Part shown: positions 9,101-59,092 of the stretch, piece after piece
How positions within the stretch are numbered: position 1 is the stretch's first letter
How the letters are laid out: every line of letters starts with the position of its first letter
Assembly (NCBI GenBank): GCA_036925085.1
Contig: JAUPFP010000063.1
Span: forward strand, 383,075 to 447,074
Origin: Brachycybe producta
Taxonomy: Eukaryota; Arthropoda; Diplopoda; Playtdesmida; Andrognathidae
Length of the DNA: 64,000 nucleotides
Direction: 5' to 3'
Notes under the pieces: generated by a model
The model's database searches: none
Told to the model about the DNA's origin: nothing
The model's input: only the letters and a program-made list of their open reading frames with translations
Position numbers and translations under genes: made by a program

Positions 9101-12100
9101 TAGAAGACTAAAGGAAGTTACTTATAATACTAGAAGAGTAAAGGAAGTTACTGATCAAACTAGAAGAGTAAAGTTACGGATCAAACTAGAAGAGTAATGA
9201 AAGTTGCTGATTAAACTAGAAGAGTAAAGGAAGTTACTTATAATACTAGAAGAGTAAAGTTACTGATCAAACTAGAAGAGTAAAGTTACTCATCAAACTA
9301 GAAGGGTAAAGTTACTCATCAAACTAGAAGGGTAAAGTTATTCATCAAACTAGAAGGGTAAAGTTACTCATCAAACTAGAAGAGCAAATTAAGTTGCTAA
9401 TTGTTTTTGATGTGTTGTTATAATTTTGTGATATATTAAATTTTAAACAATAAATTATACCACATCAAATATACTTCGGTAATAGATAGAGGGCGCTGCT
9501 ACTGATTCAAACTTTTATTATAAACATGTTTGCATAAGGGAAAAGTTTTAATGGCGCCATCTTGTCAAAATGGCTGAATTTTATTAATGCAAAAATTGTT
9601 CCCCCCCCCCCCCCAAGAAAATAACGAATTTCAGGGATTCGTTTCGTTACCCTTTGTCTGATTTCTCTCTCAGATTCCAAATCTTCCTGAAGGAGCCTGA
9701 TTTTATCCTGGAAAAAAAAAATAAACAAAAGATTAAAATAAATCGATGAAAATATATTTGTCTACTAGAGGGCGCTGTTATTCTATTTGTATAGTATATT
9801 TCCTAAGGTGGTCATGTGTAATATGATCTAAAATACACATTCAGTAGCGAGCATGCGCAGTAGTAAGTTTATCTTATAAAAGTTGAGAAATTATTTTATT
9901 TTATTTTACTTAAAGAAATTCAAGATGGCCGCCATTAGTTTAGGTTCAGAATTTGTAAAATATGCAAATGAGTTGGGAAAAAAATGGACTATGGAACTCT
10001 GGGTAATTTATAAGCATAAAAAATCACAAGAAATTGAATATATTTTAGAAACTAGAAGAGCAAATGAAATACTGATGAATTTTCATTTTCGAATTTTTTA
10101 AAATAAACTTTTTATTGGTTAATTTTTAATTTTATTTTTCATTTTTCACTTCAAGTTGGACCAGAAATCTGATAATGGTTCAAATTTCTTCATTTTAAAA
10201 CTACCATAAAAGTTTATTTGCAAGTGTTTTAGAAACTAGAAGAGTAAATGAACCAATTTTTATTTTTTATTTTTTTAAATCTTTAAAAATAAACTTTTTA
10301 TTTATTAATTTCAAATGTTATTTTTGATTTTTCACTTCAAGTTGGACCAATTATCTGATTAGTGTTCAAATTTCTTCATTTCAAAAATTTATTTGAATGT
10401 ATTTTAGAAACTAGAAGAGTAACTGAACCAATTTCTGTTTTTTATTTTTTTAAATCTTTAAAAATAAACTTTTTATTGATTAATTTCAAATGTTATTTTT
10501 CATTTTTCACTTCAAGTTTGATCAAAAATCTGATAATATTGTTCAAATTTCTTCATTTTCTCAAACTTCAATAAAAAGTTTATTTTAAAAGATATTAAGA
10601 GAAATATGTCTTTGAGTGATTCAAATTACTCTTCTAGTTTCTAAAACACTTTCTATAAGGAAGTCATCTTAAATATCACACATAAAAAAAGGTTCTGGAT
10701 AATAATTGGAACAGAATTTCTTCTTTTAGAACATTTTGTTGTACGTTAGGCCAAAAATGTTATGTGCGCATGCGCCATAACAAAAAAAAACCTCCTCTCC
10801 ACCATTTTGGATTGGAATTTGAGTCAAAGTAGGACACGGATTAGGTTCTTAAATTCTTCTTTTTTCGGAAGAAAGAAAGAAAGAAGGTGTCTAAATTTGG
10901 GATTTAAGAGAGAGAAAAAAACCCAGGGTCTTCAATTTGTGGCTCCTCACTTGCCCTTTTCAGAAGCCCCTCCCCCTCCTCCTTTTAGAATCCATACTGA
11001 CTCCCATTTTAGAACACAATCTGAGAATCTGGATTTCGTTTTTTTTCTTTTCAAAGTTAACTTTTTTATCTTTAAATTAGATTAAAAGTTTTAAATAATA
11101 CAAAATTAAATATTACAGGGTGTTTAAGAAATAAGAATCAAGTTTTGTTTTAGTGGCCACTTTTTTGTGGCACACGGGCCATGAGTTGCCCATCTAGGGT
11201 GGTCGACCCTATTTATGAATCACATACCTCAAGATAAATATCTATTTGAGGTTGGAGGAGGAGGAGGGGGGGGGGGGGGGGGGCTCTATAGAGATAACAG
11301 TGAATTTCATTTGCAGAGAAACGGTTTATCAGGGGGAGCTTTCTAAAGATTTGCAGTGAAACAAAGTTATAAGGGGGAACTTTTATTCGAAATGCTTTTT
11401 TAATTGGAAAATAAATTACGTTTTGAATACTTTTAAAAGTTTTAAGTAAAATCTTAAATATTCAACAACAGCATCAATAAAACAATTAATTAAATATAAA
11501 ATTTAAATTAAAAAAATGGTAACCGGTAAACCGGAAACTGGTATGAAATGGTTTAAAAGTTTTATAATACATTGTTAAAAGTTTAAAATGGATTTTAAAT
11601 TGTTGCAGACGATTTTGTTATAGTTAAAAAAACAGTTTCGAATCAGTTTGACAGTCCAAACGGTTGCAAAATCACTTGGAAAGAGTTCGAATTAAATTAA
11701 ACTAATTTCTGAACGGTTTAAATTGGATTAAAACAGTTGTACGACACTTTGGAATGGGTTAAAAGTTAAAACCGTTGTAAAACGGTTTTAAATGAATTAA
11801 AGAGTTGTAAAGAAGGTTTGGAGAGGAATAAACCGGTTTAAAACAATTGCAAAACAGTTTAATTTTGATTAAGAAATTTTAAAGCAGGTTAAAATAAATT
11901 GTAAATTAAAACAGTTTCAAGACGATTTAAACTTGATTTAAAATATTTTGAAGTGGATTAAATAAACTGTCAGAAATTGATCAAAATATTTCAAAGAATT
12001 TTACAACAATTTGAATTTTAAAGTAGTTTAAAAGCGGTAGTAGCTTAAACCCGTTTTAAAAAATGTAAAACCGTTTTACAATTGCTACAATTGTAAAACG

Positions 12101-20277: not shown

Positions 20278-20645
20278 GAAGAGAAACTTTAATATGTTTT
20301 AAAAACTAGAAAGGGTAGCTTAATCATTTGAAGGTATTTTCATGTTTGATATCTTTCAAAATAAGCTTTTTTATGGCGGTTTGAAAATGAAAATGACCGG
20401 TTTTTCCAAACTATTTTCACCCTTTTTCAAACTGTCATAAAAAGTTTATTTTGAAAGATATCATCATTGAAAAAACTTTTAGCATTATCACCAACTATTC
20501 TAGTTTCTAAAACAGCTTTGAATTTTTTTTTCGTAACGTTCGCTTCAAAAATAGGGGTTCTAAGAGACCTCCTATAGAACACACTAGCTACTGCAGTGGC
20601 GCCACCTGATAGGACAAAAATAAAATAAATATCTATGCAGCCACC
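20278..20645. mobile_element. ACTAGAA hairpin joined to the right arm of a GGTGGCTT/TTAA element
   Basis: A hairpin from AAAACTAGAAAGGGTAGC to TCTAGTTTCTAAAACAGC, then the TTAA-family right arm (CTACTGCAGTGGCGCCACCT to GCAGCCACC) with TTAA at 20646-20649. The same association occurs at 6073-6650 and 51889-52771. Confidence 0.65.
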
Positions 20646-24409: not shown

Positions 24410-25745
24410 TGAAATAAAGAGAAATTTGAATATGTTTTAGAAACTAGAAGAATAACTTAATCACTTAACAGTATTTTTCATATTGATATCTTTCAAAATA
24501 AACTTTTTTAGATCAGTTCGGAAAGGATCCAACTTTAAGCAGGCTTTTATTAATTTTTGTTCTGTAAAAAAAAGCTTATTTTGAAAGATATCAATACAAC
24601 ATGAAAATAACTATTAAGTGATTGAACTACCCTTCTAGTTTCTAATACACTTTCAAGTTTCTCTTCGTTTTGCACCTGAAAGACAGAATGATCAGGAGTT
24701 CGAAAGGCGTTTTCCAATTTAAAAACCTTAAGGTGCAAAATAAAGAAGAATTTAAATGTGTTTTAGAAACTAGAAGGGTAGCTCAATCACTTAACAGTAT
24801 TTTTCATATTGATATCGTTCAAAATAAACTTTTTTAGATCAGTTCGGAAATGATCCAACTTTAAACAGACAATATTTTGTTAATTTTTGTTCTGTAAAAA
24901 AAAAGTATATTTTGAAAGATATCAGCATGAAAATAACTATTAAGTGATTGAACTACCCTTCTAGTTTCTAAAACACATTCAAATTCCTCTTTATTTTGCA
25001 TCTTAATTGTAAAACGCCTTTCGAACTCCTGATCATTCTGTCTTTCAGGTGCAAAACGAAGAGGAACTTGAAAGTGTTTTAGAAACTAGAAGGGTAACTC
25101 AGTCACTTAAGGATGCTTTCATGTTGCTATCAAAATTCAGAGAAATTTGAATGTGTTTTAGAAACTAGAAGGGTCGATATCTTTCAAAATAAACTTTTTA
25201 TGTCAGTTTTTAAATGACCCAACTTTTTAAGTTGATGTTATTTTTTTTTTAAATTTTTGTCTATAAAAAGTTTATTTTGAAAGATATCATCGTGTTTTAT
25301 ATCTTTCAAACTAAGCTTTTTATGTGACTTTTTTAATATTTTTAATAATTTTTTTTATATAAAAAGTTTATTTTGAAAGATATCAAACATGAAAATATCC
25401 TTAAGTGATTTACCTACCCTTCTAGTTTCTGAAACACTTTCAAGTTTTGTCTTCAATTTGCACCTGAAAGACAGAATCAATCAAAAACCTGCTTAAGGTG
25501 CAAAATAAAGAGGAATTTGAATGTGTTTTAGAAACTAGAAGGGTAGTTCAATCACTTAATAGTTATTTTCATGCTGATATCTTTCAAAATAAACTTTTTT
25601 TTACAGAACAAAAATTAACAAAATAATGCCTGCTTAAAGTTGGATTATTTTCGAACTGATCTAAAAAAGTTTATTTTGAAAGATATCAATATGAAAAATA
25701 CTGTGATTGAGCTGCCCTTCTAGTTCCTTAAACACTTTCTAGTCT
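24410..25745. repeat. Series of ACTAGAA hairpins upstream of the MEAK7-like gene
   Basis: Palindromes at about 24430-24655 and 24755-24975, a compound set at about 25065-25440 with several partial arms, and one at about 25515-25735. Spacers repeat CCTGAAAGACAGAATGATCA or its complement. These longer flanks look like part of the family unit. Confidence 0.85.
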
Positions 25746-26250
25746 ATTAATTTTGTTCCTATGAAATAGAGAATAAATCAAGAGTTCGAAAATCAGCTCT
25801 TCATAAATCATCTTATATGATTTACAAAGAATTCTAGCCTCTAAACAGGCTTTTTAATTACAAAAAGCATAATTTTTTCACCCTTCATAATAAAGAGAGA
25901 GAGAGAGATAGAAAGTTTTTCTTTTGTTTTAATTGAAGCATTGTAAAATGAAAAAGGAAAACAACAATTAAAAATATTGTTAATAATGAAAAAAAAAATG
26001 TATTTTGCGGTCATTGACATCATCATCTTTAAAAGATGATTTCATTCTTTACCCTATATTTAATTAATTATAATTGAAGCATTGATTTATTAGGAGAAAA
26101 AGTTGAGAGCAAAAAAAAAAATAAATTACAAAATGAACGATAATTTTTTGTTTATATTTAATCTTATCAGGTAATAAAAAAAACAATGCAATTGAAGTTA
26201 AGTTAGGTTCTGATTTTTCTCTCTTTCTCAATTGAAAAGATAATTTTATT
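25746..26250. other. Intergenic AT-rich sequence
   Basis: GA-rich run at about 25894-25910 and short A/T runs; no gene or family repeat seen. Confidence 0.4.
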
Positions 26251-26254
26251 GCTA

Positions 26255-26357
26255 AAAACTAGAAGAGTAACTGATTCATTGAATGTGATTTTCGTGTTTA
26301 AGAAACCTCTTAAACATGAAAATCACATTCAATGAAACAGTTACTCTTCTAGTTTTC
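26255..26357. repeat. Compact ACTAGAA hairpin
   Basis: Arms read AACTAGAAGAGTAACTG, TTCATTGAATGTGATTTTC and TGTTTAAGA, then reverse almost at once. One arm has one extra base. It abuts a larger palindrome. Confidence 0.85.
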
Positions 26358-26361
26358 ATCA

Positions 26362-27147
26362 CAAAATTAGTTCGAAAAATCTCCGCAAAGAGCGCTAGCA
26401 TCGTTTTTCTATTGAGCCCATAGACCCATTAATAAAGAAAAACGTTAATTTTTAAAATTTACACAGCAGTCGCGGCGACAATGTTTATTTTTCATATTTA
26501 AAGTTGTCCAATTTTGATGGTTCAAAGTGTAATGTGCACCTTAAATATATGCTGATCGAGTGATAGAATGACAAAAAATTGGTAAGTGCGGTTCTATTTT
26601 TAAAAAATATTTCAAAGTCGCGAATTTCTAACTCTTATGTTAAACTCCATTGAGTACGCGCTGTTAAGAAAAACATCCATTAAAATGCTCGTAAAAATAC
26701 GTAAAAAATAATTTTAAAAAACCACAATTAATCCACAGTGAAACCAACACATTGGCGCATGTGCTGAATTTTTTCTGTTTTTTTTTTAAATTATTTTTAT
26801 GTATTTTTACGAGCATTTTAATGGATGTTTTTTGCTTACGAGTGCGTACTCAATGAAGTTTATCGTAAAGAGTTAGAAATTCGCGATTTTGAAATAGTTT
26901 TTTTAAAAATAGAACCGCACTTTCTAATTTTTTGTTATTCAATCACTCGATCAGCATATATTTAAGGTGCACATTGCACTTTGAAGCATTAAAATTGGAC
27001 AACTTTAAATATGAAAAATAAACATATTTCCTGGCGACTGTGTAAATTTTAAAAATTAACGTTTTTTTTCTTTAACATCGGGTCTATGGGCTCAATAGAA
27101 AAACTAAGCCAGCGCTCTTTGTGGAGATTTTTCGAAATAATTTTGCA
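26362..27147. mobile_element. ~786-bp near-perfect palindrome
   Basis: Arms of about 385 bp begin TTCGAAAAATCTCCGCAAAG and share AGCGCT, TTTCTATTGAGCCCATAGAC, CACCTTAAATATATGCTGAT and ACATCCATTAAAATGCTCGT; the apex is near 26755. No ORF of note. An ACTAGAA end follows at about 27170-27190, so it may have inserted into a hairpin repeat. Confidence 0.8.
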
Positions 27148-30305: not shown

Positions 30306-31475
30306 AAAATAAAAGAGAAACTTGAAAGTTTTTTTTTAGAAACTAGAAGGGTAGCTCAATCACTTAAAGTTATCTTCATATTGATATCTTTCAAAATAAA
30401 CGTTTTATTGAAAAGCTTATTTTGAAAGATATCAACATGAAAATATCTTTGAGTGATTGAGTTACCCTTCTAGTGTCTAAGACACTTTCTAGTTTCTCTT
30501 AAGATGGTTTACGAAAAGCTGATTTTTTAAGTAATTATTCTGTCTTTGAAAAGCAAAATTCAGAGAAACTGGAAAGTATTTAAGAAACTAGAAGAGTATT
30601 TCTATCACTTAAAGGTATTTTCATGTTGATATCTTTCAAAATAAACGTTTTATTTAACAAACTTACATAAAAAAAGCTCATTTTGAAAGATAACAAAATG
30701 AAAATACCTTTAAGTGATAGAAATACTCTTCTAGTTTCTTAAATACTTTCCAGTATCTCTGAATTTTGCTTTTGAAAGACAAAATAATTACTTAGAAAAT
30801 CAGCTGTTCGTAAACCATCTTAAAATAAACTAGAAAATAAATAATAAACTAGTTACCCTTCTAGTTTCTAAGACACTTTCTGGTTTATTTTAAGATGGTC
30901 TACGAATAGCTGATTTTAAAAGTAATTATTTTGTCTTTCAAAAGCAAAATTAAGAGAAACTAGAAAGTATTTAAGAAACTAGAAGAGTACCTGAAGGATA
31001 TTTTTATGTTTGATATCTTTCAAAATAAACTTTTTATAAACAAGAATTAGAAAGTATCTTCTGCTTAAAGTTGGGTCGTTTTTCAAACTGATATAAAAAG
31101 TTTATTTTGAAAGATTTATTAACATGAAAATATCCATCAGCTACTCTTCTAGTTTCTAAAATTCTTTCTATATTTTCTCTTAATTTTGCTTTTTAAATTA
31201 AAGGCAAAATAATTACTTATAAAATCAGCTGTTCATAACTAGAAACTTGAAAGTATTTTAGAAACTAGAAGAGTACCTGAAGGATATTTTTATGTTTGAT
31301 ATTTTTCAAAATAAACTTTTTATAGAATAAAAAATTTTAAAAAAATATCGTCTGCTTTAAAGTTAGATCATTTTTCAAACTGACATAAAAAGTTTATTTT
31401 GAAAAATATCAAACATAAAAATACTTTTATGTGATTGTGCTACCCTTCTAGTTTCTAAAACACATTCAAGTTTCT
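30306..31475. repeat. Series of ACTAGAA hairpins
   Basis: Hairpins at about 30330-30490, 30576-30738, 30960-31165 and 31250-31465, plus a right-arm remnant at 30850-30880. Each pair of arms shares copy-specific changes. Confidence 0.85.
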
Positions 31476-33053: not shown

Positions 33054-36000
33054 GTAAGAAAAAAAAAACAGAAAAAAACTTTTCTAAAAAGTTTTGTTTT
33101 ATATATTATATATAACAAATTTGTGGACGTGGTAATAAAATATATTTTCTATATTCACTATATTAACTTATAGTATTGTAGAAAATAAAAAACACCTGTG
33201 TGTGAGGCTTACGAATATAATATTTATTCAAGTTTTTACTTTTTTTTTTTAGGCCTAACTTTTATGTTCGCCCTGCTGAAAAGTTCTCTTATTTTTCTTC
33301 CCTTTTCCTCCTCCATTGACAACCCATACAATGGGGCTTCAGCCGCTTCATTTCGAAAAAAAAAAACCGACAAGAATAGCCTCTAACAAACCCCCTCTCA
33401 GGGCCTGAACCTTCACCATGCATTCATTGACGTCATGTTATAAGGATTTTTTTATACGGCTAACGGCTATATATTCAAAATAGGCCTATATTTTTTAATT
33501 GAATAATTAACTTTATAAGCTTAGCTTTATGCTTAAGCAATATTTTAAGAATAAGAGACTGTAACATATGTGTCTATGGGTGCCATGTTTAGAGGCCTAG
33601 ATATTAGATGTGTTTGAGGCTATTTTTCTACTTTTTATTCGAATGAAAGACAATTAAAAGTGTGTAGAGAGGGGAAGGTGGGGAGGGGGGAGATAGGAAC
33701 CTGTTGTTTTGCTGATGTTTATAGAGGGGAGAGGGAGGAGAAGTTACCTGTTAAGATACCTGTTGCTCTGAAGCCGCTGCGTTTGCGCTATGAAGATCTA
33801 TCTAAACGGAATTTGATAGAAATAACGGCATGCACCATCTTGTTCATAGTTAATATTTGAAGCACGTTGCAGGGACCGTCATTGACTATTTATTCGAACG
33901 AGAGAGGTTTACCTATTATGGCGTCTTATAATTGTATATTTATGTGAAATGCGCGCCATATTACTACACTATATTAACCTTCATAAATGTTACTGTATGC
34001 CACAGCCGGAAAAAAATAATCGTGAATTAAAAAAACGTCGTATCGTATATTTATGTCAATATTAAATAAACTTTATGTCGTTTCTAGTTAACAGCGGTTG
34101 TTAAATTTAGTTAATGATTACGTTGAATTATGGGGAGTCATAGATTAATTATTCAGCAGTTGAATTAATCGTTTACTTTAAAAACGTCCAGACATGTTGT
34201 GTAACATTGTAAACATAGGTCACATTCTTAAATTCTACTGCGATGTTAGCAACGATCAATTGTCGCTTTTTTATAGCTAATAATTGGCTAATAGGCTTTT
34301 TTTCTGACCACATTCCTAAATTCTATAATCAAAATTTAGAAATGAGGCCATAGACTCAAAAGAGATGGGCGACTCAATGTGGCGCCTCGACGTCGTGCGG
34401 TTTAAATGCAAAGCCGCCATATTTGTTCACACTTTTCGTAGAAACAAAATGTAGCTTAAAGCATTCAGAGAATTGATACGTATATGTGTGCATTTTGCCA
34501 TTTTCAATGAAGAACAGGGAAAACCCCAGATTTATATAGATGGTTTTTTTTTAAACGGAGTTTTGACGTCATATTTCTGACGAATCATTGACGCTCCATG
34601 TTTGCATTGAGGCTACACACAAACGCACATGTGGCACGAGCTGAATTGAGGCCAATGTTAATATTGCTAACATTTGCGATTCGCTAAAAAAAAGCGAGAT
34701 ACAACTCCCCCCCCTCCCCTCACACGTACAAAACCGTCTTTATGACGTCATAAAAGTTGTCTCTATAAAGGCGGCCCCATTGTGTCTCGTGTGACGTCAA
34801 CGGTTGCTAGGTTATGCGCACGTGCGCGACAAGTAAAACATAAAAAATATTTGTGACGTCAGCTGGACGACACTTTTTTTTTTATACTTTTGTTGCCCTT
34901 TGGGCACAAAATGGCGGCGTGAACTTATATTTGTTTATAAAACTTCCGATTTGGAACGATTATTTTTCTACTTTTTGGCATTGAATTTTACTGTAATTTC
35001 TTATTCAGGGGGGAAATTGTTATTAAAAAAAATCTTTCTTCCTGTTTTGTCAGTGTCGTTATTAAGTTAATTATCTAATTATAATATTTTGATATGACAC
35101 TGAACTTTTTTTTACAGAAGCAAAAAGTTTTAAAAGTTTGTTAGAAACTAGAAATACTAGATGAATGATGATGATTTAAGATGGTTTTCTGAATATATCT
35201 GCTTTTAAAACTGATAATTCCTTCTTTCAGAAGAGCAAAATTAAAAACTAGAAAGTCTTTTAAAAACTAAAGGGTAGCTCAATCGCTTAAGAGGGTATTT
35301 TCATGTTGATATCTTTCAAAATAAGCTTTTTATGGAACTTTTACATAAAAAGCTTATTTTGAAAGATAGCAACATGAAAATATTAAGGGATTCAGCTACC
35401 CTTCTAGTTTCCAAAACATACTTTTAGCAACATCGTCATTCATTTACTATTCTAGTTTCTAACAACTTTGGAAGAACTTTTAGAAATACCTGACATTTGG
35501 TATTCAATTTTCAGGAAAAAAAGTTTGATTTTCGAACTAAAAAAAATGAACCTGTTGAATTTGAGGGAAGATTTGTTGAAAGGGGAAGTCAAAAAAGAAG
35601 GGGGGGGGGAACTTCGGTTTCAACTGAAAACGCCTGAAACACCTGTGAGGCCTTCATAAAAAAAATCCCAATAGAAAGGAATTCAGACAATGCTTTTTTT
35701 CCTTGCTTTTTCAAGTCTGCAACCTTCCCCCTCCTTCCCCCTTAGTCCTGCAGACAATTAATAACTAGAGGGGTAAGGTGAATAAGGTTGATGACGTCAT
35801 TTAGATGGACGTACAGCTCGCGAGCCAACATCCGGGTTTTTGTTTAATGGGGAACACGATATTAAGGAACAGGGATTAAAGTTTAGGATTTGAGGCTAAA
35901 TTGAAACTTTAGTTTTAAATAATGAACTTTAAGAAGTCGAAAGTTTGTTAGAAACTAGAATAGTCACACGTTCAAGGGTTTGAGGCGGGTCAGGATAAAA

Positions 36001-39000
36001 AGATGAACGGGATGAACATTGGGGTAACTCTAAAACCCGACACAGAATGCATATAGAATTAGATGAACACTATATTTTAATTAATGAACACACATTTTAA
36101 AGGGATGAACAGAGAGAAATAAAAGGATGAACATACTTTAAAGGGATGAACATGGGTTTAAGGGGTTAGGTTAGGTTCGGTTACCTAACCTAACCTAAAC
36201 TAAAACCATGTTCATCCCTTTAAAGAGTGTTCATCCGTTTATTTCTCTGTTCATCCCTTTAAAATGTGTGTTCATCCATGATATAGTGTTCATCTTATTC
36301 TATATGCATTCTGTGTCGGGTTTTAGAGTTATCCCAATGTTCATCCTGTTCATTCGTTCATCTTTTTATCCTGACCCGTTTGAGGCTAAATTGAAACTAG
36401 TTTTAAAAATGAACGCGAAGTAGTCGAAAGTTTGTTAGAAACTAGAATAGTCACGTTCAAGGGTTTGAGGCGAAATTGAAACTAGTTTTAAAAATGAACG
36501 TTAAGAAGTCGAAAGTTTGTTAGAAACTAGAATAGTCAAGTTCAGGGGGCGCGTCATAAAACACAGCCCGTTTATTTACTATTCTAGTTTCTAATAAACT
36601 TTTGAGTTTCTTCTTATAGTTGAGCCTAAAACGTTTATTTTGAAAGATATCATCATGAAACTACTTTTAGTTTCATTTACTATTCTAGTTTCTAATCAAC
36701 TTTGTTACTACTTTTTCAAAGTTGACTATAACATATTTTAAAATGAAATATTTCTTGTTTCGTAAGGTTGTTGCGGTTCAATCTTGTACAGTAAAACCAA
36801 GAACTGCGGACATAAACGAGAACGTTCTTTCGGAACAGTGCCGAACCGAGACCGGATTGGTTGAGGAAGTGGTCAAAAGTGGAGAACCATTGGAAAATGT
36901 CCTCGAACAGGTAAACAAATAATAAATATTTTTGTTTATTGATCTTATTTATGCAAATATTGGAACAATTTGAAAAGACAGCAAAAAAAACTTGTTCAAA
37001 TATAAATATGGCTCATTTTTTTTGTATTGTTCAAAATAAAAGATTCATACGACTCGTAAAACAAAAAACACACACACACACATACCATAATTTACACACA
37101 CATAACATATAACACCTTAAACATGTACGGCACAGGTGGCGCTACTATCGAATTTTTTATTTTTCTATTCAAGAGTTTATTTAGTTACTTGGGTAAGGTG
37201 GGCCGCGGGACCACATGAAGTTCACAAAAGTGCAACATGAATTTGAGACAAAAACAACAAAAGAGCCATTTTCTGGCATTTTGTTGTGTTTTTGTCACGA
37301 ACAAATGTTTTTGAAAACAAAACAAATCTGAAACAAAAGTGCAACATTTGTAAGAGACAAAAACACAACAAAAATGCCAGAAAAAAAGCAGATTTTGAAA
37401 ACAAAACAAACCTGAAACAAAAGTGCAACATAAATTCGAGACAAAAAAAAACAAAAAAGCCATTTTCTGTCATTTTTGTTGTGTTTTTGTCACGAACAAA
37501 TGTTTTTGAAAACAAATTTTGAAAATAGATGTTGAAAACAAAACAAAACTGAAACAAAAGTGCAACATTTGTTCGAGACAAAAACGCAACATTTGTTCGA
37601 GACAAAAACACAACAAAAATGCCAGAATAAAAGCAGATTTTGAAAACAAAACAAAACTGAAACAACTGTCAGCAATACTCGAGACAAAACCGTAACAAAT
37701 TTGTTACAAAACACAAATTATTTGTGAAATTCAAGTTTCTAAGCAATTTGAAATAATAAAAATTCCCTTAAAAAAGTTTATTTTGAAAGATATGGCAGTA
37801 ACAATGAAAATACACTTGTATTGAATTTCTCTTTTACTCTTCTAGTTTTTTTAAAAAAAAAATTCGTTTTTAAAAGTAGTTTTCTGATCTTTAAAGCTAA
37901 GGACCTTAAGTTATAAAGAAAGAATTTTGCAGCGTCATCTGGTGTCAATGTTAAGAAACACTTTTGATCCGTGTTAAATTGAAATTTTCTCAGCAAAAGT
38001 TCGAATCACTTTCTAGTTTCTAATAATAATCTTTTGTGTTAAAACTTTATTTTTTCTTTTGACAAGTTCAGAATAATAAAAAAAATTAGTATTGTATTTT
38101 TTTATATTATTGGTTATTGACCTCAACGCCTGAAGCGCCACCTATTGGACTGCGAAAGAAAGACATTCAAGTTATTGCCATTCATTTAAAGATAATAATG
38201 GAGAATCATCGAACTTAAACGATGAGAGTGAAACTGGTTATTTATTAAATATTAACCAACCCAAGCATAGATTTCAAACAGGCAATTAGAAATCGGGAAG
38301 AACTTCAGTTGGCTCCGCCCTTTTTATGACAAACGCAACTTCTAATTGGTTTGGTTATGTAGTTCTGACGTCACATGCTCCGCCCTTTTCAACGTCGAAC
38401 CACACAACAAACCAATTAGAAGTTGCCATTAGTCATAAAAAAGGCAGAGCCAACTTCTGTTTGTCCCGATTTCTAATTGCCTGTAGATTTCAATGAGAGA
38501 AAGATAGATAGATGGAGAAAGAGAGAAGGTCATTGATCGAAATATTGTTTTTCACAATCAGAATTACGACTTTTTAGAAAATAAAACTTTTCACAACTCT
38601 TTTTTTTTTAGTCAAGAAAAAGTTTTCAGAAAATTTTCGTTAATTTTTTACATTTAAAACCTAATTAAAAATCAATAATTCTAATAATTTAACTTAATTA
38701 TATAAAGACATCAGAAGAAAAATTCATAAGTTTGTTATAAACTAGAATAGCAACAACAACAAAAAGAGCTAAAATATTTTTTCTAAATTTTAGAAGAAAT
38801 TAAAAAGTTTTTGTTAGAAACTAGAACAGTAAACGAAAAAGCTAGAAGTATTTTCACAATATCTTTCAAAATGAACTAAAATGTCTATTTTGAAAGATAT
38901 TGTGAAAATAATTTTAGCTCTTTCTTTTGCTATCCAATTTTAAGAAGAAACTAATAAGTTTGTTAGAAACTAGAATAATAAAAGAAAAGAGCTAAAAAAG

Positions 39001-42000
39001 CATTTTCAAAATATTTTTCAAATTAAACATTTTAGAAGCAATTTTAAGAAATTCAAAGTTTGGTACAGACTAGAATAGTAAAAGAAAAAGCTAGAAGTAT
39101 TTAAACATTTTAGAAGAAATTTTTAAGAAGAAATTCAAAGTTTGTTACCGACTAGAATTTTAAAAGAAAAAGCTTAAAAGAATGTTCAAAATATCTTTCA
39201 AAATAAACATTTTAGAAGAAATTTTAAGAAGAAATTAAAAGTTTTTGTTAGAAACTAGAACAGTAAAAGAAAAAGCTAGAAGTAGTTTCACAATATCTTT
39301 TCAAAATAAACGTTTTAAGAACAATTTTAAGAAATTCAGTTTGTTAGAAACTGGAATAGTAAAAGCTACAAGTATTTTCATGATTATAAATTATCTTTCA
39401 AAATAAACTTTTATATAACATGTGAAACACGTGATATTTATCATTTTTCACATCGTTATTTTATTAGAATAAATAAATGTACAAGTTGGTCATTTCCAAA
39501 CTTGTCATAAAAAGTTTATTTTGAAACATTATCATGAAAATACGGAGCCCTGTAAAGGACATGCGAGATTTTTTTTTTAAATCTCGACATTTCGACTTTA
39601 TTCTCGAAATTTCGACTTTAATCTCGAAATTTCGACTTTAATCTCGACATTTCGACTTTATTCTCGACATGTCGACTTTAACTGTGTTTTATTCGGTCAT
39701 GTTAATTATGTCATGTTGTGCGCACCATACTCTAATAATGAAATTATTGCAAGCGCCCTCTTGTAGCAACTATAATTTAGAGTATGGTGCGCACAACATG
39801 GCATAATTAACATGGCCGAATAAAACACAGTAAAAGTCAAAATGTCGAGATTTAAAAAAAAAATCTCGCCTGTCCTTTACAGGGCTCCGTATGAAAATAC
39901 TTTTAACTTTCTAGTTTCTAAATAAACTTTGAATTTTTCTAAAAAAAATGTTTTTAAAAAAAGTACAGTAATTAACGTTGTGTTAATTTATTTGTACTTT
40001 GAGGTGACAATTTGTCAGAAAAAATGTCGTCCTTTTTTTTTTTAAAATACAAAGGGTGTGTTGCGGTATTTATTGTTTGAAAAGTAGGAATTTTCAGGTC
40101 TCAGGATGACCAACAAATAGGGTTCCGCTTTGGTAACAAAGCAGAAAGTCAACTTTTTCAGGTTCACTGAAACGGAACTTTTATTATTTTCATTTTATAT
40201 TAAACAGAAAAAAAAAATAACAAAAAAGGGCTGTGAAAATAAACATTTAAAAATATATATATAAAAATTGAAATAGGCCTAAATTAGAATATTCTTTTAT
40301 TGGACCATTTTTGTCCTTTTGTCATTGTCCCTTTGTTGCTTCATTTTATTCAGTTCCTGTTTAATCTCATCAATTGCCTTAGAAATTTAAATTTTGATTA
40401 GTTTTTTTTTTCTATAAAATATATCTGGACATTGACATCAGAGAGAGAGAGAGGGAGAATATCACTTCCGGTTTAATTGTTCCGATTTTCATACATTTCA
40501 AAATTCATTCAATTATAGGGCCTTAAGAGGAGGGGCTCCATATAGAAAAATATTTGTGTAAATTGCAAGGTAGATGGCGCTTGCAACCTCCATAGAGGTG
40601 GCCAACTACACTCGTCGTCAATTAGTTGAAATCGAATGCACCCCTTTTTAGCTCTAAAAAGCATCCAAAACAACCTTAATTATCAGCACGTGGTAATATA
40701 AGTGAAGAAGAGAGAGAGCACGTGTAGAGAAATAGCGATGACGCAATTAAGTTTGCCACGTGCAAAAAAAAAGGAAGTCAGTTCATTTCTATGGGAGGAG
40801 GGCTAGTGGCGCCATCTAACGCTACACTACTTGCATTTTTTTTAAATTTTGACGATGGAAACTTGAACTCTCGAAACAGGGTTTTAGTATGGAAAACTCT
40901 GTTTAATGTTGAATTACCTTTGAGGATTCAAGGTGCAAATTCAAAGGAAATAAATTTAGTACTTGAACTCTCAGAAGAGAATTTCTGAAAAGACAGAATT
41001 AATCAAGAGTTAGAAAAATTAGCTGTTAATGAACCCATCTTAATTACATTCAACTCAATTATTAATCTCGTTTTCGATTAACTAAAATATTAGAAGCCCG
41101 CATTTCCCCCTCTTATTAATTAATGTGCCCGCAGCTGAGGAACTATTTTAACCCTAATAATAATTCCTAGTCGGAATCCAGGTAAATTCAACGGAGCCCT
41201 GTAAAGGACATCAGTTTTTTTTTATTTTATCTGAATTTTCAACCGAAATATCTGAAATCTCAAACCAAATTATATGAAATTTCAAACAAAATATCTGAAA
41301 TTTCAAACAAAATATCTGAAATTTTAAATAAAATATCTAAAATTTCAAACAAAATATCTAAAATTTCAAACAAATTATCTAAAATTTCAAACAAAATATC
41401 TAAAATTTTAAATAAAATATCTGAAATTTCAAACAAAATATCTGAAATTTCAAACAAAATATCTGAAATTTCAAACAAAATATCTGAAATTTCAAACAAA
41501 ATATCTGAAATTTTAAATAAAATATCTAAAATTTCAAACAAAATATCTAAAATTTCAAACAAATTATCTAAAATTTCAAACAAAATATCTAAAATTTTAA
41601 ATAAAATATCTGAAATTTCAAACAAAATATCTGAAATTTCAAACAAAATATCTGAAATTTCAAACAAAATATCTAAAATTTTAAATAAAATATCTAAAAT
41701 TTCAAACAAAATATCTAAAATTTTAAATAAAATATCTAAAATTTCAAACAAATCATGTGAAATTTCAAACAAAATATCTAACTAAAGTATGAACCATTAT
41801 GATTGGAATTTCAGATATTTTGTTTGGAATTTCAGATATTTTGTTTGAAATTTCAGATAATAAATTTTAGATATTTTGTTTAAAATTTCAGATATTTTGT
41901 TTGAAATTTCAGATATTTTGTTTGAAATTTCAGATGTTTTGTTTGAAATTTCAGATAACAAAAAAAAACTCATGTCCTTTACAGGTGGACAGAGTGGACA

Positions 42001-45000: not shown

Positions 45001-48000
45001 CTGCTAAAGTTGGACATGTCCAACTTCACCAGCCGCTGTTAAAATCACTAGTCCGCTGGAGAAAGCAGCTGCTAGTAGCAGTTCAGACTATGCTGCTAGA
45101 GCGCTACAACCAGCCAGCAGCAATCAGTGGCTGGGAAACCAGCCTAGTGTGACTGCGCCATTCTGTTTTGTCAGCTTGCTGTGGATCCGGCTTCCGAAAG
45201 ACTGTTTTTGAAACTCCTATGAAGTGTGTGAGAAAAGTGTGTGACAATTTGTCTGGAAACACTTGAGTTTCCTGCTTTGTTTTTTGTTTTGTCTGCTTGA
45301 TGTGGACCCGGCCTTCTTTATATTGAGTTCTAATCCTTGTTTCGTTTCGTGCAAGTTGCACGACAGGTTTACTAGTATTATTAATTTAATATTTTTGGTT
45401 CCTCCGCCCTTTTCAAAACAATAGATTTCGTTTTATGATATCATAATAATATTTAATGATATATGAATATATTTGATTAAAAATAATACTGTTGATGATG
45501 ATATGGAACACGACGGTCTTCAGAATGAAAAAAACAAACAAAATTGTTGAAAATGTGTTACTGAAACAGTTTAAAATCAAGTATAATTTATACAACAGAT
45601 TTTTATGATAAATTTTTGTTTAAAGTTAGTTTAACATTTTTTTTATAAATAACTAGAAGAAAATATTGAATTTTAATTAGAAACTTGAATGGGCTAAAAG
45701 TATTTTTTTAGGAAAATATCTTACAAAATAAACTATTTTGAGAGCAACTTTAAGCAGAAATTGAATGTTAATTAGAAACTCGAATGGGCTAAAAGGATTT
45801 TTAGGAGAATATCTTTCAAAATAAACTATTTTGAAGCAACTAGAAGAAGAAATTGAATTTTAATTAGAATCTTGAATGGGATAAAAGGATTTTTGTGAAA
45901 ATATCTTACAAAATAAACTATTTGGAAACAGCTTGAAGAAGAAATTGAATTTTAATTAGAAACTCGAATGGGCTAAAAGGATTTTTAGGAGAATATCTTT
46001 CAAAATAAACTATTTTGAAGCAGCTTTAAGCAGAAATTAAATTTTAATTAGAAACTCGAATGGGCTAAAACTATTTTTCTAGGAAAATATCTTACAAAAT
46101 AAACTATTCTGAAAGCAACTTTTAAGAAGAAGTTCAACGTTTACTATAAACTAGAATAGTAAATAAAAGTCCGTAAAAGTATTTTCAAAATGACATCTTT
46201 CAAAATAAACTTTCTCGAAACATGCAACTGTGAAGAAGAAATTCAAAGTTTTTTAAAAAACTAGAATAGTAAACGGACTAAAAAAAATTTTTTAATAATA
46301 ACATCCTTCACGATAAACTTTTTTAGAAATAACTTTCAAAAGTTTGTTAGAAACTTGACTAGTAAATAAATGAGAGGAGACTTAACAGGCAATTAGAAAT
46401 CGGGACGAACAGAAGTTGGCTCCGCCCTTTTTAAGACGAACGGCAACTTCGAATTGGTTGGTTATGTAGTCTGACGTCACATGCTCTCCGTCCTTTTCAA
46501 CGTCGAACCACACAACAAACCAATTAGAAGTTGCCGGTCGTCATAAAAAGGGGCGGAGCCAACTGAAGTTCTTCCCGATTTCTAAGTGCCTGTAGAAGAC
46601 TTATTAAAAAAGCGTTTTTCGTTCCGCTTTGCAAAGCAGAACATTTTACCGTCGAACAATCATGTGAACCATGATTTTTTCTTTTTCTCTCAATATATAT
46701 TGCAATGTTATCTAATTTAATATATAAGGAGGGGGGCTGAGGGGCGGGCCCTTAAGTTGCAATTATTTTTGCAATATCATCATGGAGAATCTAAAGCAAA
46801 GCAACAACAACAACAACAAAAGGAATTGTCTTAAAAACAACAACAAAAAAACGACCTGAGAACAAAATAATTGCAATTTTGCTCTTGGGCAATTTGTGTT
46901 TTTTTGTTGTTGTTTCTCTCTCATACAACAAAAAAATAGTCGTAAATTAACTTTCGATCATAGGGTTTTATGTTATACTCGAAGTAAAAACTAGAAAGTA
47001 ACAAAAAAAAAGTTTTATGTCGTGACTTTGATGCGAAACTGAAAAAAAAAAGCTTTTTTTTCTTCTGTACTATAATTAGAATGACCGCCATGTTTGTTTT
47101 GTTTTTTCTACTCTTTAATGTTAGTTAGGTTAGGAATGGAAAAATTTTTAATGAAATTTCCAGTGACACAGAAAAATTAACCTTTTTTTTCTGTTCAGAC
47201 TCACAGAAACACAATATTTAATTTCAAGTTTAGAGAAGTATTTTAGAAAAGAAAAAAAAATACTTGTTTAAATGCACGGTAGATGGCGCCTGCAACCTCT
47301 ATAGGTGGCCAAACTCCACTCGTTGACAATTAGTTGAAATCGAATGCACCCTTTTAGCCTCTAAAAAGCGTCCAAAACAACCTTAATTATCAGCACGTGA
47401 CAAACTTATACCCAGAAACATAAGTGAAGACAGAGCACGTGTAGAAATAACGATGACGCAATTAAAAGTTTGCCACGTGCAAAAAAAAGTTGAGTCAGAG
47501 TTCATTGAAGAGTGTCAGTGGGAGGAGAGCTAGTGGCGCCATCTAACGATACATTCACAAAATAAATTATTTGGCTTTTTTTTCTGCATATTTAAGATTT
47601 TGACTTTTATTTGACAGAAAGTAGGCAGAATAAAAACAATAAATAGAATACAATTATTTAAATTATATAAATTCTGTTTTCAGTTGGTATTTTCTGTGTG
47701 TGTTGTGGGGTCTACGAGAGTAAAATTATTTAAACTCGAGAAATACTATTTTCAGTCGGCGTTTTCTGCGTGTTTGAACCTTGGGGCCTAGAAAATTAAC
47801 TGAAAATTGAATTTTTTTTAAATTAAAAAAATTCTGTTCTATTTATTTGACATAAAACGCAGGCAGAAAAAAAAGAACAGATTAGAAAAGAATTATTTAA
47901 ACGGCGTAAATTCTATTTTTCAGTCGCATTTTCAAAATGCACTCAAAATAGAGCAGATTTTTTTTTTAAAAAAAATGTCTTTTCTGCTCCACGCTTTTAC

Positions 48001-48984: not shown

Positions 48985-49620
48985 AGTAAGAAACTAGAAG
49001 GGTAGCTGAATCACTTAATAGTATTTTCATGTTTTTGATATCTTTCAAAATAAACTTTTTATGAGGAAAAAAATCTGCTTAAAATTGAGTTATTTTCAAA
49101 CTGACATAAAAAAGTTTATTTTAAACGATATATCAAACATGAAACTACTTTTAAAGTGATTGAGTTACCCTTCTAGTTTCTAACACATTCAAAAAGGCAG
49201 AATAAATTTGTCTTAAGATGGTTTACATGTATGAACATTAGCTGTTCATAATTTATCTTAAGATTATCTTATGATGATTGTCTTTCAGGTGCAATATTAA
49301 GAGATACTAGAAAGTGTTTTTATAAAAACTAGAAGGGTCGCTCAATCACTTAATATTATATTTTCATGTTTGATAAAACATGAAAATATAATATTAAGTG
49401 ATTGAGCGACCCTTCTAGTTTTCATAAAACTAAACTTTCATTTCTTTCAAAATAAACTTTTTATGAGGAAAAAAAAATTTAAAATGTCGTCTGCTTAAAA
49501 TTGAGTTATTTTAAAACTGACATAAAAAAGTTTATTTTAAACGATATTAAACATGAAACTATTCATAAAGTAATTGAGCTACCCTTCTAGTTTTTAAAAA
49601 AAAACACTTTCAAGTTTACT
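48985..49620. repeat. ACTAGAA hairpins, including a compact one at 49330-49420
   Basis: Hairpin at about 48990-49185. A compact hairpin at 49330-49420 has arms of ~40 bp matching almost completely, including the rare GGGTCGCTCAATCAC. Further arms run to 49600. Confidence 0.85.
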
Positions 49621-50137
49621 CTTCATTTTTTTCACCTAAAATAAAGCAAAAAAATATGCTTTTTACAATCTTAAATTGGTTGCTTAGAGACTAGAGTTGA
49701 CTTACAACTCTTGATTCAGCTGTATTTTAATTTCATAAGAACTCTAGCCTCTAACCAGCCCTTTTTTTATTATAAAAAAACATTAATAAGATTTTGAAAG
49801 ACCCCATTTTACACCTTTAAAAACCACTTTAACTTTATTATTATGGCGGCCATTTTTTGTTTGTTAATAATAAATAATAAGATGGGAACTTGAATTTCCA
49901 GTTGTGAAAAATATTTCAAATAAGAAGGAACAATAAACCCCCCCCCCCAAAAAAATGGTTGGGTCATTGTCTTGTCTCCATGTATATCATTATATATATA
50001 TTTTAAAAAATAACAAATCTTACAAAAGGAAAGAGAATGAGGGAGAGAAGAAGAAGAAGGAGGACCAATGGTCAGTTAAGAGTTAATTTGTAGACCTGTC
50101 CATTTTGAAGAAAAAAATGCCACTCTGCTTTTTTTTT
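49621..50137. other. ESRP region, no gene recognised
   Basis: Contains TTAGAGACTAGAG and CTCTAGCCTCTAACCAG, a diverged GAGGCTAG-type pair, and GAAGAAGAAG near 50050. Confidence 0.35.
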
Positions 50138-50561
50138 ACAGGAAATTAGAAATCGGGGAGAACTTCAGTTGGCTCCGCCCTTTTTATGACGACCGGCAAC
50201 TTCTAATTGGTTTGTTGTGTGGTTCGACGTTGAAAAAGGCGGAGCATGCTCCGTCGAACCACACAACAAACCAATTAGAAGTTGCCGTTCGTCATAAGAA
50301 AAGGGCGGAGCCAACTTCTGTTCATCCCGTTTTCTAATTGCCTTTTTTGGACACAGGCAATGAGAAATCAAGACAGACAGAAGTTGGCTCCGCCCCTTTT
50401 TAGGACGACTGACAAATTTTAATTGGTCTGTTGTGTGGTTAGACGTTGAAAAGGGCAGAGCATGTGACGTCAGACTACATAACCAAACAATTAGAAGTTG
50501 CCGTTCGTCATAAAAAAGGGGCGGAGCGAACTTCTGTTCATCCCGTTTTCTAATTGCGTGT
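50138..50561. mobile_element. ACAGGCAATTAG MITEs, copies 6 and 7 in tandem
   Basis: Copy 6 is 50138-50345 (ends decayed). Copy 7 is 50353-50561 (ACAGGCAATGAGAAATCAAG to CTAATTGCGTG). TGACGTCA in copy 7 at 50465-50472. Confidence 0.85.
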
Positions 50562-50917
50562 TTTTTTTTTGTTGAGTAAAAATGGACATGTTTAGAATAC
50601 GAAATTAAGATTGTTGTTGTTGGTTTCTTTTAAAAGTGGCCAATAATTTTGTCAAATGAATTTTCTTCTTTTTTTTTCAAGAAGTTATATTAAAATAAAG
50701 GGAATTAACTTTTATATAGCATTGAGGTTGTGTTTTTTTTCCCTTCTGTTTTGTGTGTGATTTTAATTTTGCTTGAAGCAGAAAAGAAAGAAAAAAATAA
50801 TGGACGCCATGTTGGGTCTTCAATTTATTCTTCTAATACATTTTTATAATTGAGTTTAAGGCATGATGGGCTCTTGTTGAAGTCGAGATTTTGTAGTATA
50901 ATTCTCTTAAAGACATT

Positions 50918-51425: not shown

Positions 51426-51888
51426 CAGCGGAGTCTCGAGGTACTGAACAGGGTCTAAAGATGCTTAACTGCCTCAGCAGAGTCTGAGAAGACTCAGCAA
51501 AATACAGTCTTTGCTTGAAGTAAACTCCAAAAGAGAAAGGGGTTCAGTAAACTTGAAGCTTTATCCAGTGAAGAAGTGGTCCAGTGAACTCAAAAACCCA
51601 TTACTCAGTACCCATTTGAGACTAATCTGGATTGTTATAAGCATGACGTTCAACAAACAACAAAAAAAATACCATAGTAAGTTTTTAAAAGAAAAACACA
51701 ATTTGAATACATGAACGCCCCCCTGTGTTAATGTGTGGGCCACATATGGAGCTGTCTATTGGGGGGGGGGGGTCAGGTAAAAAGATGAGATTCTTTAAAA
51801 CAGAGAGAGGGAGGGGGTTCAGGAGGCGACTGAATAAGCGCCGAATTGAACAATTGACGTTTGGACATTTGTTCAATTTGGCGCTTAA

Positions 51889-52771
51889 GGTGGCTTTATA
51901 GATATTCAATTTGCTTTTGTTCTACTCAGATGGCGCCACTGCAGTGACTAATGCTAAGCTCCATAGACTTTTTTATTGTAAAATTTGGGCGCGAAAACGT
52001 CAAGCGAACGTTTTTTTTTTTATAGAGACAACATGCTGAAAAAAATTCAAATTGTTTTCAAAACTAGAATGGTAAAAGATGATGCTAAAAGTGTTTTCAT
52101 AGCAATATCTTAAAAAATAAACAATTTTTATGAGCAGTTTGAAAAATGACCCGTTTTTCATTGAAATTTTATGAAAAACTATTTTCGGCCTATATTTCAA
52201 ACTGTCAGTAAAAGCTTATTTTGAAAGATAACATCATTGAAAACACTTTTAGCATTATCACTTACCATTCTAGTTTTTAAAACAGCTTTGAATTTTTTTT
52301 TTCGTAATGTTTCTTCTGAAAAACGTTCGCTTGAAAAATAGAAATTTTCTGAAAAATCGCGGTTTGAGGAGGGAAAAGACCTTCTTGTAAAACCTAATAC
52401 GAAGTACACACCTGATAATTTAAATGCATTTAAATAATAACCGTGTTCTACAGAGCCCCGTGAAGGACAAACAAACAATATGTCGAACTCAATTTATTCA
52501 GTTAATTAATCTGAAAATATTGAGTTAATACTTAAATATAATTATTTAAACTATTTGACAAAATATTGATTTAGTATTTCAATTTTAAAATATTAATAAT
52601 AAAGTCAATTTTTAATTTGGTGTTCATGTCCTTAACTGGATTCCGTATAATTCACCTAAACACATTTAATTTGAATTCATTTAACTCATGTGTGTATACA
52701 AGGTATAAAAGCCACTGCAGTGGCGCCATCTGTGTGAACAAAAGCAAATTGAATATCTGTCAAGAGCCACC
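51889..52771. mobile_element. GGTGGCTT/TTAA element with a second element inserted
   Basis: Ends GGTGGCTTTATAGATATTCA and (minus) GGTGGCTCTTGACAGATATT, with TTAA at 51885-51888 and 52772-52775. The interior has an ACTAGAA hairpin (52040-52310) and an ATACCTTGTACACAC-family copy (52392-52707). Confidence 0.85.
52392..52707. mobile_element. ATACCTTGTACACAC-family element nested in the TTAA element
   Basis: Runs from AATACGAAGTACACACCTGA to GTGTGTATACAAGGTAT and interrupts the right arm just before CCACTGCAGTGGCGCCATCT. Confidence 0.75.
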
Positions 52772-52775
52772 TTAA

Positions 52776-55110: not shown

Positions 55111-55648
55111 AAACTACTGTCAGCAGTTACTCACGACAAAACCACAACAAATTTGTGACAAAACACAAACAAATTGGGTTTTGTTTTCTGGTTTCTATGG
55201 TTTCTATGCCACTGTCCTGTTGTTGTTTTTAATACTGTCCACAACTGCACAGACAAGAGTTCACAAAATGTTGCGTAATTCCGAGACAAAACACAAACAT
55301 TTTGATGTTTACCCGACTTGAGCCGGGAAATTGCAGACAAAACTTAAAAACAAATCACAAAAATCGCAGAAATGTATTAGAATTGTCGCCAATTTGTCTG
55401 ATTTCGGGTGTCGGATGCCGAACGTCCAACATTCGACATTGGAAGGCATTTCGGGCATGTGTAAGTTTCCTTGTCCCGCGTCAAAGGGGGGGGGGGCCCT
55501 TCAAACATTGTGGAATGTGTTCTTCCCACCATTCTGTGACGTTGGACACATAGTGTGGCCCAGTTTCAATAAGTTTACACGTGACAAACAAACATGGGGC
55601 GCTTTACTTAACCCTATGTTCTTTATGTGTACAGTATATATCTATCAC
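55111..55648. other. Right part of the satellite element and unique DNA
   Basis: GTTTACCCGACTTGAGCCGG near 55310 and CGCAGAAATGTATTAGAATT near 55368 resemble other GGCCGGGTCCACA copies. A G run at about 55485-55496. The 83-codon frame at 55302-55553 has no recognisable domain. Confidence 0.4.
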
Positions 55649-55830
55649 ACAGGCAATTAGAAAACGGGATGAACAGAAGTTGGCTCCGCCCTTTTTATGA
55701 CGAACGGCAACTGCTAATTGGTTTGTTGTGTGGTGTGACGTCAGACTACATAACCAACCAATTAGAAGTTGCCGGTCGTCATAAAAAGGACGGCGCCAAC
55801 TTCTGTTCATCCCGTTTTCTAATTGCCTGT
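55649..55830. mobile_element. ACAGGCAATTAG MITE, copy 8
   Basis: The flanks ATCTATCAC (55640-55648) and TTCTACCAC (55831-55839) match 7 of 9. A central deletion shortens it to ~182 bp; TGACGTCA at 55736-55743 remains. Confidence 0.88.
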
Positions 55831-55839
55831 TTCTACCAC

Positions 55840-56777
55840 AGGTTCCTTTAGGTCAAAACAAGAAAATATATAAAAACTCTTCCAAATGGCAAATGTTTTT
55901 TTTTGTCTGAAAAATGGTCACAAACAGCATTTTTGGAAGACCATTTGTCACAATTAACCTATTAATCCCATGAAACATTTACTTCAAGGGGCCAAGGACA
56001 CTTAATAGAACAAAACATCCCTTTGGAACATGGAAATAAATTTCTATTGTCAAAGATTTCCCTAGACACAAAACAAAAACACACAAAAAAAAACATGAAA
56101 TCTTTAGTGCAAAAAATTCAGAGTTTTCAGACAATTTAGGCGCCATTTTCTTTTTTTAATCTTTCTACATAATAATAATAATCTTGAAACAAGTCAATAG
56201 AATAAAAGGAACTACGGTTAAAAGACTAGAAAAGGAGGGGGGGGGGGAATTGGAGGTGTAGAAAGGGAAATGCACTGTTCCAATGAGCGAATTTCTAAGA
56301 GGGGGGGAGAGGGGAGGATTGAAAAGGAGGTCCTCCCAAAAAAGAGAGAGAGAATGGGAACCATTTTTTTTATGTTAAATTTTGAAGTAGAAAGTTGTGT
56401 CACGGTTTACAGAACAAGAATTTAAAGACACAACGATTGACACGCCCTCTTTTGTCTGTCAGTGGTGGTTTTTTTTTAAAAGAAAAACTTCTCTTTGGTC
56501 AATTGTAATTTGAATTCCAAATTATCAATTGTAGAAATCACTTATACAGGAAAATAGATCCAAATTATGCAAATTTTAGAATCACATTTTGGGAACAATC
56601 AGAATTGAGAGAAAGTTGTCTTTTTTTTTTCTTCTAATGAGATTTGGATTTAAGTGACACTCAAAAGTGGTCTTGTTGTGTGCAGTGGTGCGCATATCAT
56701 TGAGTGAGTGAGTGTACACAAACCAAGCCCCTTAAGCAAGAAGAGTCTATGACCTCTCTCTACAGGTTTCCATTTTA
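55840..56777. other. No gene recognised
   Basis: AT-rich with G runs (about 56236-56247) and GAGAGAGAG near 56345. Neither strand shows splice-framed coding sequence. Confidence 0.35.
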
Positions 56778-57592: not shown

Positions 57593-57601
57593 GTGTGATA
57601 G

Positions 57602-59035: not shown

Positions 59036-59092
59036 TTTTTTTAATAGATAACGAAAAAATTTCAAAAAGTAGTTTCATTTATGAAACACTTA

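Follow-up and report, generated by a model that had tools for sequence, protein, structure and literature searches.

The inverted-repeat hairpins in the 64-kb stretch of DNA analysed here (the window, 32% G+C) are separated by spacers that lie in both orientations in three tandem arrays and enclose loops that lie in both orientations in two of them, and at 49.3 kb an arm has been copied backward. In our view, held with moderate confidence, these arrangements are best read as the outcome of recombination between nearby inverted repeats, or of template switching during replication, within foldback elements arranged in tandem. In the main, the pattern is accounted for by what inverted repeats are known to do in recombination and replication, here in a foldback element that has been multiplied in tandem; both footprints, homogenised arms and inverted spacers, have been described before, and the most interesting part is that the asymmetric spacers and loops make flips countable. 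The first-pass annotation, which had read the likeness of the two arms of a hairpin as gene conversion or fold-back duplication, is partly supported, but the inverted spacers and loops had been overlooked.

A profile built from four arms and iterated located 94 copies of an 84-base arm in the window, which looks like animal DNA from its gene content. Many of these arms face each other, the left on the plus and the right on the minus strand, and form a hairpin. At first 28 adjacent head-to-head pairs were collected, and 24 hairpins were usable. The permutation of identities was done with 25 hairpins (at least 35 columns in common, gap below 120); from the rare-variant count on the set was 24, the pair 25145/25266, a truncated piece inside a nested copy, being left out. 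The tree pairs and the nearest-relative count comprised 23 hairpins, 8409-8476 being too short, and hairpin 25065-25446, which is interrupted by a nested copy, entered the flank comparisons only. Pattern scans for the arm family gave no matches in viral contigs (two patterns) or in bacterial and archaeal genome contigs (one pattern), and no paper could be tied to the family by text searches of the literature, which were not made by sequence.

The sharing of variants between partner arms is real but selective, some copies being affected and others not. Mean partner identity was 0.866, versus 0.786 for permuted partners (25 hairpins), and none of 20,000 shuffles was as extreme; when partners were permuted within clusters only, 2 of 20,000 were (18 hairpins). 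Among 24 hairpins, rare variants were in common in 42 of 190 cases between partners, in 24 of 319 between near non-partners and in 150 of 3872 between far non-partners. Every shared state was counted once per arm and insertions were left out, so that part of the evidence at 49.3 and 58.7 kb is missing from this total. The 42 shared states belong to 11 hairpins: 10 to 30567, 6 to 58709, 4 each to 7523, 26250, 6236 and 52044, and 2 each to 30958, 31244, 35246, 38806 and 49306. Hence, the statement that both arms of each hairpin carry the same copy-specific changes holds beyond chance (partners versus near non-partners), but not for each hairpin, since 13 of the 24 share none; one of these, 30319-30494, has a 5-nt loop, yet no rare variant in common. 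With a weighted score, the partner reached a p_far of 0.05 or less for 28 of 48 arms, versus 72 of 338 near non-partner comparisons. Partner identities span 0.74 to 0.98, and the description of the process as active was not borne out.

Similar results were obtained with a tree of 87 arms (23 hairpins). The distance between partners was 0.168, versus 0.310 after shuffling (0 of 5000), so that arms do pair by copy above chance, as had been proposed. The opposite outcome, with all left arms apart from all right arms, was looked for in this tree and was absent: left and right arms are mixed (26 changes versus 27.6 shuffled) and do not form separate clades. Partners were sisters in 6 of the 23 hairpins, and 56 of 83 forks were weakly supported. 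The strict nearest relative was the partner for 9 of 46 arms (with 2 ties), another arm of the same cluster for 15, and an arm elsewhere for 20. Because consensus-like arms attract all others, this last criterion was not used alone and was combined with the rare-variant and weighted scores. Three hairpins to which these counts apply are as follows:

26250 to 26362: a short hairpin, the partner arms of which are mutual best matches
35246 to 35423: a hairpin with weak arm pairing; the arms are sisters in the tree (support 81), and their nearest relatives by identity are elsewhere
58709 to 58920: a hairpin with a 69-nt identical tract between its arms, the variants of which are also found in the next arm (58950-59038)

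Particular strings had been quoted as specific to single copies. This is correct for AGTATTTCTATCACTTAAAG, which occurs once per strand (30595, plus; 30727, minus) and only in the hairpin at 30.6 kb, and for GGGTCGCTCAATCAC, also present once per strand (49335, plus; 49412, minus) and confined to its own hairpin, but several others recur in neighbours. ATCACCTAAAGGTGTATTTT is shared by the two arms at 58.7 kb and absent from the rest of the window; pieces of it (ATCACCTAA and GGTGTATTTTCATTTTGATAATC) recur in the next arm, at 58989 and 59000, and the 58.7 kb variants are therefore specific to the locus, not to the hairpin. AGTATTTAAGAAACTAGAAG recurs at 30966, and AAGCTTTTTATG at 25313 (plus), 42875 (minus) and 58841 (minus). 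In the 7.5 kb hairpin, AAAGGTAGCTGAATCAG belongs to the left arm only; the right arm has AAAGGTAGCTGATTCAG, which is also found in the right arm of the next hairpin (7998, minus).

The copy in which the sharing had first been noted (30576-30738) lies within the array at 30.3-31.5 kb, where the following features were identified:

30319 to 31472: four hairpins in tandem, together with a remnant (30848-30884), with spacers forward, inverted, forward and inverted by profile and by alignment
30486 to 30836: a mirror palindrome of 351 nt, 92% identical over 171 aligned columns
30747 to 30840, minus strand: an inverted spacer relative to 30487-30574 and 30878-30965, with a flank-profile match on the minus strand

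The palindrome consists of a spacer and an arm (30567-30649), an 11-nt loop, and an arm (30673-30754) followed by the inverted spacer. The noted hairpin is its middle part, arm and spacer both being repeated in inverse. The identity of spacer 30747-30840 to 30487-30574 and to 30878-30965 was 0.92 and 0.91 when inverted, versus 0.68 and 0.77 in the same orientation. A degenerate hairpin follows the palindrome and has, by eye, the opposite flank type on both sides.

Two further arrays, at 7 and 24 kb, were analysed in the same terms:

7233 to 8476: five tandem hairpins, of which the fifth is short, with a period of ~300 bp; one of the four spacers is inverted
7436 to 7530, minus strand: this inverted spacer, the first of the four, with an identity of 0.99 to the reverse complement of the fourth (8317-8416)
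7600 to 7658, minus strand: an inverted loop, with an alignment score against loop 8188-8247 of 56 when inverted and 13 in the same orientation
24424 to 25743: four hairpins in tandem, in which spacers 24652-24757 and 25439-25522 are inverted relative to 24977-25072

In the arrays the arms are separated alternately by loops and spacers, both of which are asymmetric, and orientation was assigned with a spacer-end profile and by direct alignment. In every within-array comparison of spacers one orientation scored clearly higher, and the flank-profile matches agreed, falling on the opposite strand. Mixed spacer orientations were found in all three arrays, and inverted loops in those at 7 and 24 kb; in the latter, orientation alternates over the three spacers, and the last loop (25591-25672) has the opposite orientation to the other three. 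Inverted tandem repeats pose difficulties for assembly, and their collapse or mis-joining could make arms alike or spacers appear inverted. However, the units differ by scattered substitutions in both arms and spacers, and the changes of orientation occur in three separate arrays; we give such an assembly artefact almost no weight.

At the inverted spacer at 7.4 kb, the left-hand hairpin has, by eye, the 'left' haplotype in both arms and the right-hand hairpin the 'right' haplotype in both; two hairpins further along the array keep, also by eye, one 'left' and one 'right' arm each. Such reciprocal arm types are what one inversion predicts, whereas correction within each hairpin needs two independent events in addition to the inverted spacer. 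Since the homogenised-looking arms at 7.2-7.7 and at 30.6 kb both adjoin an inverted spacer, an arm-swapping inversion explains both without conversion. Of the two origins that had been suggested, fold-back is visible once, at 49.3 kb. The loop orientations in the 7 kb array imply more than one event there. Furthermore, the right arms 7652-7735 and 7939-8023 are identical but have unlike loops, so that direct conversion or duplication is needed as well.

The preferred reading can be spelled out as follows. A transposon-derived foldback (long palindromic) element would have been multiplied in tandem at several loci, and its arms would engage with nearby inverted (and direct) copies in recombination or template switching. 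In each event, the segment between two inverted arms would be flipped, or the sequence of one arm would be copied to another. When a flip involves two neighbouring hairpins, both arms of the first would be 'left' and both of the second 'right', and the arms of one copy would thereby come to share variants; copying back would give arm sharing directly. Three single elements outside the arrays, in which each arm has its best match at another locus, would have undergone flips and copying to a lesser degree, and no hairpin-RNA function would be required. The same products can result from crossing-over between inverted arms and from replication template switching, which are inseparable in a 64-kb window.

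If flips exchange arms, the type of flank might be related to the similarity of the arms. In hairpins with like (mirror) flanks arm identity was 0.916 (n = 7, hairpin 7233 being counted as mirror), versus 0.867 with unlike flanks (n = 5; one-sided p 0.024). Among 100 scorable arm pairs within the three arrays the values were 0.870 and 0.840, respectively, and 46 of 5000 label shuffles were as extreme; here arm 7233-7316, with a flank of neither clear type, was left out and hairpin 8409-8476 was taken instead. In the 24 kb array alone, flank type had no effect on arm similarity (0.877 same, 0.878 different). Since the flank labels were assigned after the sequences had been seen, the comparison is supportive rather than decisive.

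At 49.3 kb an event of a different type was observed, together with a related unit that lacks it:

49299 to 49446: a nested fold-back, in which the adjacent arm is copied inversely, 47 nt of it perfectly, before the original inner arm resumes
48987 to 49187: a sister hairpin unit without the fold-back insertion, compared with 49306-49616 as a paralogous pair

Relative to the sister unit, which has the same plan, the fold-back is an insertion of ~65 nt. A fold-back event is clear here, although the outer part matches in 19 of 28 columns (by eye) and is not a clean single copy.

Arm-to-arm correction within each hairpin, by quasi-palindrome template switching or gene conversion, could act in tracts and without any flip, and as an account of the whole pattern it deserves some credence, though not much. 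In partner pairs, runs of 69, 57 and 47 nt are identical, with divergence in the homologous sequence on either side, and almost no far control pair has a run of such length (the maximum was 48 nt). Mismatches were clustered (p at most 0.05) in 6 of 24 partner pairs, versus 28 of 329 far pairs (Fisher p 0.019); 400 far pairs had been drawn and 329 kept (alignment of at least 70 columns), the partner pairs being unfiltered. This excess is modest, because among identity-matched far pairs (at least 0.87) 2 of 24 were clustered, one with a 48-nt run, which is too few to tell, and hairpin 7817, one of the six partner pairs with clustering, has an arm identity of only 0.82. Arm excess was greater where the profile gap was short (rho -0.52, p 0.008, 25 hairpins), as would suit such correction, but the correlation was weak with aligned loops (rho -0.37, p 0.07, 24 hairpins), and we do not lean on loop-length dependence. 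The mechanism itself is reported for yeast and for RNA genes (PMC8604942, PMC8794818). However, at 7.2 and 30.6 kb the likeness continues into the spacer, which is itself inverted, and such correction does not produce this; the hairpins that share no rare variant, one of them with a very short loop, also count against it. Some tract-wise correction besides flips is possible.

The copies outside the arrays give an indication of the element from which the hairpins may derive:

6069 to 6654: a single element with TTAAGGT-type inverted ends that holds hairpin 6236-6503, each arm of which has its best match in another element
20285 to 20522: a single hairpin with two different arm types, 0.74 identical
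51885 to 52775: a single element with ~65-bp terminal inverted repeats, 91% identical, that holds hairpin 52044-52292

The ends of 51885-52775 start with TTAAGGTGGCT, and a perfect 12-bp direct repeat (TCAATTTGGCGC) lies on either side of the element; as a target duplication, if it is one, it would be unusually long. This anatomy makes it a complete-looking, putative DNA transposon. Similar ends but no matching direct repeat were found at 6069-6654, these two being the elements examined for both ends. Hairpins 6236-6503 and 52044-52292 represent one element in opposite orientations (82% over 399 columns, 6150-6590 against 51980-52360 reversed), two homologous copies dispersed to unrelated sites. 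Across the window, the end motif TTAAG[AG]T(T)GG occurs 14 times, versus ~2 expected from base composition, with some of the matches inside array spacers. Motifs of the form TTAAG[AG]TGG without an identified partner end were also seen at 17933, 20649, 23800 and 41043. The hairpins resemble the interior of a foldback-type element, and the shared arms suggest that the array copies are its relatives.

The right arm of 6236-6503 best matches the left arm of 52044-52292 (0.91), whereas the partner identities of these hairpins are 0.75 and 0.82. For the single elements 6236, 20285 and 52044 together, best matches at other loci range from 0.89 to 0.95 and partners from 0.74 to 0.82; that the arms of 6236 and 52044 are closer to other loci is as expected from separate arm histories. 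Nevertheless, the partners in 6236 and in 52044 share 2 rare states each, and their weighted scores exceed those of most far arms (p_far 0.01-0.05), which would follow from membership of both arms in one subfamily. Subfamilies might account for the whole pattern if there were several near-perfect source palindromes and inserted copies inherited the variants of their source in both arms. This would suit the shared states of 6236 and 52044 and the recurrence of the 58.7 kb variants in the neighbouring arm, and variants judged 'private' within 64 kb may occur in copies elsewhere in the genome. The identity tracts with diverged flanks and the fold-back beside its sister unit point instead to local events, and the very subfamily at 6.2 and 52 kb has unlike arms with best matches at other loci. 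We regard subfamily structure as rather unlikely to be the main cause.

The hairpins could also be kept complementary by selection on a transcribed RNA, through compensatory changes in the two arms. Their predicted RNA folds are very stable at the three stretches folded, among them the 351-nt palindrome (-208.8 kcal/mol, z -31.9) and the 49.3 kb fold-back (-84.7 kcal/mol, z -20.7). There is, however, no bias towards G-U pairs, with 58 G-U versus 57 A-C mismatches on the plus strand, a count to be read with the proviso that the transcribed strand is not established for most copies. This near equality gives no sign of selection for pairing, the wide range of partner identities argues in the same direction, and we hold this explanation to be highly improbable. 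In the Rfam search the hairpins matched no family at the gathering score, and only a tRNA-Ser reached the threshold in the window.

With regard to gene context, a frame on the minus strand (3943-4227) matches the myosin heavy chain tail in solved structures (best E 5.2e-12), and a neighbouring frame matches Pfam Myosin_tail_1 below the curated cut-off; we take these myosin-like frames at 3.9-4.5 kb to be paramyosin-like. A TLDc-domain gene is also present in the window (E 1.1e-29). The copies at 5.9-8.5 kb have the myosin-like frames on one side and, on the other, a frame at 9.5-9.8 kb, which by eye we take for a putative further exon and which has no match in Pfam or PDB. At most, these copies may be intronic, as had been proposed. 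Many arms (e.g., 24977-25133) are preceded by TTCTGTCTTTCAG or a similar sequence resembling a 3′ splice site, and are then open for ~20 codons; many arms behind a TTTCAG read as one 21-residue peptide or a similar one. Coding arms were considered and rejected: entropy by codon position was 0.98, 0.72 and 0.73 (45 columns, 94 arms), and since the third position is not the most variable, coding constraint is not indicated. Two frames that contain arms had no match in Pfam.

The element resembles foldback elements and palindromic MITEs (non-autonomous DNA transposons): its inverted arms are long and its loop is small, copies are dispersed in either orientation, and it has terminal inverted repeats and, in one copy, a flanking direct repeat. 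It is unlike them in that, of the two elements for which both ends were examined, one has the 12-bp direct repeat, and in that many copies stand in tandem arrays; the kinship is one of anatomy. As in gene conversion between palindrome arms, for example in sex-chromosome palindromes, the arms of one palindrome are on average closer to each other than to those of other palindromes. Here, in contrast, the likeness is patchy, more than half of the hairpins having no shared rare variant, and the arms are far shorter than those of sex-chromosome palindromes.

A further close parallel is template switching between inverted repeat arms, which, as reported by Abraham and Hazkani-Covo (PMC8604942), homogenises arms and inverts spacers, and does so more often when spacers are short. 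Template switching can also create and maintain RNA hairpins, according to Monttinen and Loytynoja (PMC8794818). Arm homogenisation, inversion of spacers and loops, and fold-back copies are common to those systems and to the window, and a preference for short spacers is reported for those systems. The window differs in that the arms are ~80-180 bp long and belong to tandem arrays of a repeat family, that flips run between neighbouring hairpins too, and that events are deduced from one sequence rather than from a comparison of parent and daughter. The long inverted repeats embedded in nematomorph mitochondria are another animal case of long perfect hairpins (PMC6649704).

If the preferred reading were true genome-wide, the asymmetric spacers and loops would serve as polarity markers with which flips, fold-backs and arm corrections could be counted separately in a natural animal genome, and one could ask whether mutation alone maintains the potential for long dsRNA. 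A more far-reaching proposal, which we find doubtful, is that foldback arrays in this animal's genome undergo replication template switching and inverted-repeat crossover so often that their hairpins would be continually re-perfected while spacers flip to and fro, the arrays being a self-maintaining source of long near-perfect dsRNA kept by mutation bias and not by selection. Caution is also advisable, since changes common to two hairpin arms, usually read as compensatory evolution, can stem from inversion of a neighbouring segment.

Other repeats were observed in the window. In contrast to the hairpin arrays, direct tandem arrays of arms with a period of ~91-103 bp lie on the plus strand at 578-1330, 45651-46322 and 38806-39411, the last containing one inverted arm (38880-38937). 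At 8930-9395, a 26-30-bp tandem repeat with ACTAGAAG (~15 copies) is apparently a short piece of an arm multiplied by itself. The region 41228-41957 consists of a 21-bp tandem repeat (26 copies) followed by the inverse of the 21-bp unit, and is thus a large inverted repeat. Finally, 50080-50630, 55604-55852 and 57370-57696 read alike at several places and on both strands (GRHKKGGAN and an 18-residue string in the frame translations), and are probably another inverted-repeat family.
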